Shown: positions 48,668 to 50,932 of the stretch, in pieces
Layout of the letters: each line of letters begins with the position of its first letter
Position numbering within the stretch: the stretch's first letter is position 1
Assembly (NCBI RefSeq): GCF_024741235.1
Contig: NZ_JANSKA010000001.1
Location: 248,001 to 312,000 of the forward strand
DNA: 64,000 nucleotides
Direction: 5' to 3'
Source: Tractidigestivibacter montrealensis
GTDB lineage: Bacteria; Actinomycetota; Coriobacteriia; Coriobacteriales; Atopobiaceae
The notes under the pieces: model-generated
Databases searched by the model: none
What the model saw: only the letters and a program-made list of their open reading frames with translations
What the model was told of the DNA's origin: nothing
Made by a program: the position numbers and the translations under genes

Positions 48668-50086
48668 CTAGCGTGCTGCGCCCTGGCCGCCAGATGCCTT
48701 GCGTGTCCGAGAAGTGCGCTTAGTACCGGTGGCTGCCTTTCTCGTCGCGGGTTTCTTTCTCGTTGCCGGCTTCTTCACGGTCGCCGCAGTCTTCTTGGCC
48801 GAAGCTGCTGGCTTCTTCGCCGGCGCCGCAGCTGACGGCTCCTTTGCCGATGCCTCGTCGAGCACGGCCTGCAGCTGCGCCTTTGCCTCTGCCTCTCGCG
48901 CGAGTGCGGCCTCGACGGCCTCCTCTGCCCGCGCGACCTCACCCTCGGCCGCCGCCTGATCGGACTTCGCACTAGCAACAGCCGCCTCGGCTTCACCCGC
49001 AATCCACTGGGCCGAGGAGAGCTCGGCAGCAGCCCTATCGGCCTCTACCTGGGCTTCGTTGCCTTTGCGGATGGCATCCTCAAGCAGTGCGGCAATACGG
49101 TCCTTCTCGGCCCACGCATCGCGCGCGGCAGCAGCAAGGCGCTCGGCCTCCTTGGCGTGCTCGGCAACGGACTGCTGCTCGGCCTTGGTGCGCTCCTCAG
49201 CCGCAGCCAGCGCGTCGTGCATCTGGGCAAGACGCTCCTTTGCCTGCTCGAGCCGCTCCCCCGTGCCCGCAACGTCCGCGCTGGCACTCTGCGCGGCTGC
49301 CCGCGCATCTCCCACAACGGACGCCGCGTGCCTGCGCTGCAGGCCACCCTCCTCGAGCAGGCACGGAAGCAGCTGCCTTGCCTCCTCCTGCCACCAGTTC
49401 CAGCTGTGGTCAACGTCGGCGCCCCAGTACTCAAACGTTGCGCCAACACCAGCGGCCTCAAGCTCGCCCTGGAGCGTCCGCTGGGTCTGGCCGCCCTCCT
49501 CGCCGGCGCCCGTCCCGCACACAAAAGCCAGTTGTAGTCCAGACAGGGCCTTTACCAGCAGTGGGTTGTCACCAAGCCCGCGCACCAGATCCACGGGCGA
49601 GAAGGCCCTCCAGGCGTCGGACATGGCGTCCCCCACAACCCACGCGGCGTCGTAGGTGCCCGAAAGCGCGAGAAGCCCACCGTAGAGGCTGGGCTTGCGA
49701 AGCATGGCGATGGTCGCGTTGAGCGCGCCCAGGCCCGCTCCGACAACAATGGGCGCGCCGGCATCGGGCGCCTTGTTGCGCACAAGCTGGGCAAGTTCGT
49801 TCTCGACCAGGTCAAAGTACCCGCCAAGGCTTGTTAGACGGTAGTCCGCTGGGGCATAGCCCGCATACCAGCTGGCATCGTCGGCGGAGTCAACGCAGAA
49901 GAGCCGCACGCGCCCGGCGTCGATAAGCCCCGCCAGCGCGTCGACCATGCCGCCTTCCCCCCAGCTCGCGCACGAGGAGTCGCCCTCGGGAAACGCGATG
50001 ACCGGCCGACCGGCCGTGCCATACTGCGTCACGTCAAAGTCCCCGTCGACACCCTCACGGTGCAGGGTGAAGTCCTTGGTCTCCAT
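48668..50086 (-). CDS. Esterase-fold pseudo-enzyme with coiled coil and histone-H1-like tail
   Basis: 472 residues from ATG 50086 (GGAGGCAAC upstream). Residues 1-240 match the esterase/D family of alpha/beta hydrolases (VRLFCVDSADDASWY, SLYGGLLALSGTYD, FEYWGADVDHSWNWW with the His). The nucleophile elbow reads GAGLGA where relatives have GxSxG, so the Ser is Gly and the protein is probably catalytically dead. Residues about 255-410 are an Ala/Glu/Lys coiled coil. Residues 415-472 are Lys/Ala/Pro/Thr repeats (KKPA, KKTAA, RKKPATRKAA) like histone H1 or bacterial HU tails. Likely binds DNA or polyanion; role unknown. Confidence 0.8.
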   Translation of the reverse strand: METKDFTLHREGVDGDFDVTQYGTAGRPVIAFPEGDSSCASWGEGGMVDALAGLIDAGRVRLFCVDSADDASWYAGYAPADYRLTSLGGYFDLVENELAQLVRNKAPDAGAPIVVGAGLGALNATIAMLRKPSLYGGLLALSGTYDAAWVVGDAMSDAWRAFSPVDLVRGLGDNPLLVKALSGLQLAFVCGTGAGEEGGQTQRTLQGELEAAGVGATFEYWGADVDHSWNWWQEEARQLLPCLLEEGGLQRRHAASVVGDARAAAQSASADVAGTGERLEQAKERLAQMHDALAAAEERTKAEQQSVAEHAKEAERLAAAARDAWAEKDRIAALLEDAIRKGNEAQVEADRAAAELSSAQWIAGEAEAAVASAKSDQAAAEGEVARAEEAVEAALAREAEAKAQLQAVLDEASAKEPSAAAPAKKPAASAKKTAATVKKPATRKKPATRKAATGTKRTSRTRKASGGQGAAR

Positions 50087-50216: not shown

Positions 50217-50810
50217 CTACTTCCCCTCGCGCAGTTCGGGGAGCACCTTGCCCGTCGTGCGCACGAACTCGCTCAGGTACTTGTTGACCTCGGCGATCTC
50301 CACGCCTGGGTAGTCCCCCACGAGCCAGGAACGGTAGGTCTGCAGCACGCCGCCGGCAATGTAGTCAGTAAGCATGGCGCAGGCCTTCTTCTCCTGCTGC
50401 GTGTTCACGGGAATGCGCTGCTGCACCCACTCGCGGAAGCGGGACTCGAGCGCAAAGACGAAGGACTCGATGCTTCTCGACTCAACCAGCTTGCGCGTAA
50501 GCTCCCGGTTCTGGTCGAGATACTCTCCCACCTGCGTGAGCACGGGCAGGGGGTCCTCAAGAAAGCCGCTCTCCACCGCCTGCGAGAGAAACTCCGAGAT
50601 GGTGTCTGCAGTGTCTGCCATCACGGACCTCATGAGGTCGTCCACGTTATCGAAGTGCGCGTAGAACGTGCCGCGGTTGAGGTCTGCCTTACGGGCAACA
50701 TCGGAGACCGTGATGCTCTCGTAGGGCTTCTCGGCCAGCAACTCCATGAACGCCTCCTTGAGCAGGCGTCTGGAGCGCTGCGCGTTCCTGTTCATGCCCT
50801 TCTCTGCCAT
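50217..50810 (-). CDS. TetR-family transcriptional regulator
   Basis: 197 residues from ATG 50810 with GGAGGGAGC. The N-terminal TetR helix-turn-helix is clear: RLLKEAFMELLAEKPYESIT, then VSDVARKADLNRGTFYAHFDN (about residues 36-55). The C-terminal part is the ligand and dimer domain, of the TetR_C_7/DhaS-like group with shape typical of Firmicutes regulators. Target unknown. Upstream (50811-51194) are two small dyads, one containing TTGTTAGTGTACAA, that may be its own operator. Confidence 0.9.
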   Translation of the reverse strand: MAEKGMNRNAQRSRRLLKEAFMELLAEKPYESITVSDVARKADLNRGTFYAHFDNVDDLMRSVMADTADTISEFLSQAVESGFLEDPLPVLTQVGEYLDQNRELTRKLVESRSIESFVFALESRFREWVQQRIPVNTQQEKKACAMLTDYIAGGVLQTYRSWLVGDYPGVEIAEVNKYLSEFVRTTGKVLPELREGK

Positions 50811-50932
50811 ATGTGCTCCCTCCAAGCGCAACAAATGACATTGTTAGTGTACAAGTCCGAACGAAATATGGCCGGCTTTGGCCCGAAGTTCTTCTGTGCA
50901 CGCACACCAATTGAAGCCTGGAAGAAAATCAC

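Follow-up and report, generated by a model that had tools for sequence, protein, structure and literature searches.

A conserved esterase fold without its serine, joined to a new helical arm, as a candidate binding protein of Atopobiaceae

The central finding of this analysis is that an esterase-fold protein of Tractidigestivibacter montrealensis belongs to a conserved subfamily in which the nucleophile serine has been lost, the fold has been retained and a long helical arm has been added. The gene lies in the 64,000-nucleotide stretch of DNA analysed here (the window) as a single unbroken ORF of 472 amino acids on the minus strand (50086 to 48668), without internal stop or frameshift. It encodes a pseudo-esterase domain (residues 1-247; 49346..50086), two arm helices (residues 248-331, 49094..49345, and residues 336-415, 48842..49081) and a Lys/Ala/Pro-rich basic tail (residues 416-472; 48671..48841), all on the minus strand. 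The esterase-plus-arm architecture was found again in 32 other genomes, and among the 188 window ORFs of at least 100 amino acids only this one has a Lys/Ala/Pro-type basic end; together these argue that the architecture is beyond chance. We think it probable, if by no means assured, that this dead esterase is a non-catalytic binding or adaptor protein of the cytoplasm, of which the remodelled esterase domain and the arm are the constant parts and the tail is an auxiliary anchor. A cytoplasmic location would be consistent with the N terminus, in which no signal peptide is apparent by eye.

Membership of the PF00756 (CE1-like alpha/beta-hydrolase) fold is supported by both sequence profile and structure. 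The window protein scores 26.8 bits against a profile cut-off of 22 (E=5.5e-6), AlphaFold2 models most of residues 1-247 at a pLDDT of ~95, and VIA-align matches residues 1-248 of the predicted structure to feruloyl esterases, S-formylglutathione hydrolase (SFGH), Esterase D (EstD), Ag85 and MPT51 with Z of 20-23. The nucleophile elbow, in contrast to the GxSxG of a serine esterase, reads GAGLGA, with Gly118 (codon GGC, 49733..49735, minus strand) in the place of Ser. The other two positions of the triad are retained, namely His227 in the motif VDHSWNWW (49406..49408, minus strand) and Glu196 (49499..49501, minus strand), the latter being the presumed triad acid. The first-pass annotation had read the protein as an otherwise well-kept esterase fold with a serine-less elbow, and that description extends to the whole arm-bearing clade, in which the nucleophile position is Gly in 31 of 32 members, the His position is His in 29 of 32 and Glu is present in all 32. 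The sole Ser member of the clade (L018) reads DVVPSWFWW, with Pro in place of the catalytic His, so that it too is without a full triad; the three members lacking His carry Pro, Pro and Tyr there and have kept fold and arm. Beyond S118G, the substitutions H123N, W217T and D219E and the residues Trp 42 and Trp 159 are constant or almost constant throughout the arm clade and seldom seen in the Ser group, which points to a remodelled domain. Glycine cannot act as a side-chain nucleophile, and among the homologues we found no Gly-elbow protein described as an active esterase; loss of esterase activity is likely.

Several known systems resemble parts of this protein. Esterase D, SFGH and the CE1 feruloyl esterases have the same fold as its residues 1-248 (Z 22-23; 220-233 residues superposed at an rmsd of ~3 A) at a structural-alignment identity of 12-16%, and differ from it in having Ser where it has Gly and in lacking the added arm and tail. 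MPT51 (FbpC1) of Mycobacterium tuberculosis (PDB 1r88; Z 21.9) belongs to the same superfamily and is by nature non-catalytic; it is secreted and is not known to have an arm or a basic tail, whereas the window protein shows no obvious secretion signal. A carbohydrate esterase with divergent catalytic and non-catalytic binding functions (PMC2661963) likewise places a binding role in the esterase domain; according to the title of that paper its active site has both functions, whereas here the nucleophile has been lost and an arm added.

The arm is an invariant part of the subfamily and, as judged from sequence profiles, a new one. The first-pass annotation had described a coiled coil of 150 residues; a long helical region is indeed predicted, although it covers 168 residues (248-415) and is modelled as two long helices. 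Across 31 sequences (effective number 19; L186, with a broken frame, excluded), Ala 352, 359, 366, 373 and 380 are invariant at a spacing of seven residues, a pattern that would be compatible with a tight helical coil, and W325 in helix 1, L335, and Q346, A349, D350, W361, G364 and E365 in helix 2 are likewise invariant. AlphaFold2 confidence drops to 71 at residues 321-330 and to 59 at residues 331-340, where the predicted hairpin would turn. Because confidence is low at that turn, the model does not decide between a hairpin and the alternative, an intermolecular coil. An HMM built on the arm matched 24 of 296 genomes of the class, all in Atopobiaceae and every time at the dead-esterase gene, and 1 of 396 genomes of the phylum, the window's own; both samples were evenly drawn and incomplete. 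Searched alone, the arm returned a weak LMBR1 match from Pfam (E=0.58) and weak SMC coiled-coil matches from NCBIfam, and a named homologue was rejected on these sequence profiles, by which an already known fold may still escape.

The tail is a different matter. Its 57 residues hold 11 Lys, 6 Arg, 1 Glu, 16 Ala and 5 Pro (net +16), and residues 420-472, except one, have a pLDDT below 50. The predicted structure matches the parts that had been expected, an esterase fold, long helices and a disordered tail; the role first given to the tail is not supported as it was stated. The first-pass annotation had taken the basic tail as the mark of a fold reused for nucleic-acid or polyanion binding. Outside the arm clade, however, such a tail is carried by 31 of 49 Ser-type copies and 31 of 32 Asp-type ones (L222 left out); the intact Ser paralogue of the same genome, which lacks the arm, has one too. 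Within the clade a net charge of at least +8 in the final 50 residues is found in 19 of 31 arm-bearing members (L186 left out), which like the window protein, where it is predicted to be disordered, have a basic tail of the PhaF/AlgP type, and the tail is absent or weak in the other 12. Among 79 named loci, distant members from Firmicutes and elsewhere consist of the domain alone, followed by no more than 13 residues, and Lys/Ala/Pro tails appear only on records named Coriobacteriia or actinobacterium. Since the distant members are tailless and the intact Ser paralogue is tailed, the tail was gained within this lineage and is not bound to the loss of Ser. What stands of the proposed reuse is thus the loss of the nucleophile, with retention of the fold, across a conserved clade; to place the tail at its centre went too far.

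A survey of 140 Atopobiaceae genomes found at least one esterase copy in 94 and, once 16 duplicate loci had been dropped, 118 copies in all, with Ser (51), Gly (32), Asp (32) or Ala (3) at the nucleophile position. A comparison of homologues with and without Ser, as had been suggested at the outset, therefore finds the Gly copies to be a conserved clade beside Ser, Asp and Ala relatives. The arm group comprises 32 copies (31 Gly, 1 Ser), including L186, whose arm sits in another frame, and the subfamily occurs in 33 of the 140 genomes when L185 (G086) is added. In a quick-search tree (LG+G4, with a long-branch warning; L222 and L185 omitted; 16 of the 79 named loci as outgroup rows) the arm clade forms one branch with SH-aLRT 99, adjoined by a two-row Asp clade, and well-supported branches require at least three changes for Asp, at least three for Ala and at least two for Gly. 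The alignments A1, A3 and A4 held 16, 60 and 24 hand-picked sequences. The closest named record was from Tractidigestivibacter scatoligenes (Atopobiaceae; 93% identity over the esterase domain), in a list that may omit very near records.

Selection has acted unevenly along the protein. Over the 28 pairs of eight congeners, in all of which the ORF is intact, the esterase domain has a dN/dS of 0.088 and the centre of the arm (residues 306-368) one of 0.085; the arm bases reach 0.129 and 0.198, and the tail, the fastest-evolving part, 0.221. The Ser paralogue (21 pairs) gives 0.047 for its domain and 0.257 for its tail. Purifying selection on the dead esterase is clear from these ratios. A pseudogene, a frameshift or an assembly artefact would be the most trivial explanation, and it gains something from two damaged relatives: one gene (L186/L041, in G080) is frame-broken at the arm junction, with the arm resuming in another ORF, and one Gly copy (L185, G086:C137:16702-17412) is cut off where the arm should start, the arm being found at the start of contig C106. 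The latter copy runs directly into a gene that presumably encodes a PTS enzyme I, and probably reflects a chimeric contig. For the window gene, the low dN/dS across the whole ORF and its integrity in all eight congeners refute a frameshift or pseudogene, and the frameshift that had been feared at the tail junction was looked for and is absent; we give this explanation practically no weight.

How, then, might such a protein have arisen and what might it do? We postulate that a duplication in Atopobiaceae gave rise to two copies of an EstD/CE1-type serine esterase, that the nucleophile of one copy changed from Ser to Gly along with H123N, W217T and D219E, and that this Gly copy acquired the long helical arm, a predicted hairpin with its invariant Trp/Ala/Gly-Glu-Ala stretch. 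In such a protein the esterase domain would bind a ligand or partner and leave it uncleaved, and the arm would serve either for self-association or for docking to another partner. Members that have the tail would use it to attach themselves to a polyanion (nucleoid, polyphosphate or ribosome), much as PhaF and AlgP do.

What speaks most strongly against a purely binding function is that nearly all members have kept His and Glu. It is conceivable, though unlikely, that the protein is still an enzyme, whose retained His, Glu and pocket catalyse without Ser through general base chemistry, a lyase reaction or another nucleophile, as the Asp relatives may do. The near-constancy of the two residues in the arm clade would fit this, as would one clade of 29 copies with Asp at the nucleophile position and His retained; with 27 of the 32 Asp copies lying beside an ATP-grasp gene, the fold may retain a use even when its nucleophile has changed. 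The Asp copies (L079, L106, L107, L109, L187-L217 and L219; elbows GFDxGA, GCDMGA and GVDLGA) are possibly Asp-nucleophile enzymes. Glycine offers no such side chain, however, and the three arm-clade members that lost His without losing fold or arm also argue against catalysis.

It is distinctly unlikely, in our view, that the protein is primarily a nucleoid- or polyanion-binding protein with the histone-H1-like tail as its working part. The tail is strongly charged, and the KPAA tails of AlgP and PhaF of Pseudomonas bind DNA and help to place polyphosphate or PHA granules (PMC9239181, PMC5658603). Those proteins likewise join a helical part to a disordered Lys/Ala/Pro tail that has been compared to histone H1; no esterase-fold domain is described in them, and the window tail is shorter than that of AlgP and variable within its clade. 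Against a working role stand its patchy distribution in the clade, its rapid evolution and its presence on intact esterases. A PHA-granule phasin of the PhaF type was rejected as well: the own genome gave no match to PhaC_N (PF07167), a profile that did match 1 of 14 control genomes, so that the host, without PhaC, would form no PHA granule. The own genome does encode a polyphosphate kinase (PF02503), which would permit polyphosphate tethering.

A further possibility, and a very improbable one, is that the dead esterase is a regulatory pseudo-subunit, forming a pair with the intact Ser paralogue, or with the ATP-grasp partner of that paralogue, and modulating them. In the own genome the Ser paralogue (C4:214759; 35% identity in the esterase domain; intact GCSLGA elbow) lies on the same contig at ~82 kb, shares the fold, has a basic tail as well, a long one of the Lys/Ala/Pro kind, and lies ~12 kb from an ATP-grasp gene; a Ser or Asp copy is also present in 23 of 33 arm genomes. 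The remaining 10 arm genomes, three of them single-contig assemblies, have no Ser or Asp copy, however, so that the dead esterase also occurs without a Ser paralogue. An ATP-grasp gene was found on the same strand in the flank of 28 of 51 Ser, 27 of 32 Asp, 0 of 3 Ala and 0 of 32 Gly copies, counts that are lower bounds as the flanks are short. Among 60 relatives, of which 24 had an esterase match and 20 a Ser- or Asp-type copy, an ATP-grasp homologue from locus L080 had strong matches in 19, all with a Ser or Asp copy, G033 being a Ser genome without one; the arm form occurred in 17, five of which (G013, G031, G032, G033 and G035) had no strong ATP-grasp match. An obligate partnership with either gene was accordingly rejected as a general rule. 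The pairing of a 250-aa esterase with an ATP-grasp protein is itself conserved across gut Firmicutes and Coriobacteriia (L044-L111, for example L080:9971-11962) and was the only widely conserved neighbourhood found; 55 of the 79 named loci have the ATP-grasp homologue, mostly immediately downstream on the same strand. Near the own-genome Ser esterase lie MBOAT, PLP-decarboxylase-like and AMP-binding genes (L234:7152-12028), a group that may resemble an envelope D-alanylation cluster.

For the candidate binding protein itself, no conserved operon partner was found in the neighbourhoods of the arm loci, where synteny is partial and limited to two neighbours, one matching SIS weakly and the other 139 aa long. 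Upstream in the window, ~130 bp before the ATG, lies a TetR-family regulator gene (50217..50834, minus strand; PF00440, E=2.8e-10), which was matched at only two (L033 and L034) of ten named arm loci; it is taken here as a plain same-strand neighbour.

Lys/Ala/Pro tails are not a common ornament of this genome, at least in the 400 kb sampled, where 1 of 1133 ORFs of at least 100 aa ended in one (threshold of at least 8 Lys in 50 residues, so that weaker tails may escape). That ORF (L248:17298-19517, on contig C4 near 577 kb) has CBM_48, alpha-amylase and alpha-amylase C-terminal domains, which identify it as a glycogen branching enzyme. The C-terminal end is a basic tail, 32-270 residues long and containing no fewer than 9 Lys, in 23 of its 24 close relatives (L256-L279), one of the set (L278) coming from another family of the order. 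The exception is L274, whose end is short and holds 3 Lys; L280 is truncated, and no tail is present on five GH13 relatives that are more distant (L281-L285). It is tempting to speculate, though we hold it to be a long shot, that in Atopobiaceae the tail is a common address label on glycogen branching enzyme, the ATP-grasp-linked esterase and the dead esterase, and that the arm-bearing dead esterase is a new kind of organiser or tether for storage bodies derived from an enzyme fold and not from a phasin.

Our literature searches found no paper on this gene family. The loss of catalysis in esterase folds is already known; here that loss can be traced on a tree within one bacterial family, where Ser, Asp, Ala and Gly states stand side by side, and it is accompanied by an arm found on nothing else in the genomes searched. 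The tail common to the dead esterase and the glycogen branching enzyme provides a concrete localisation hypothesis for gut Actinomycetota, and the subfamily may offer a clean system for testing how an enzyme fold becomes an adaptor.
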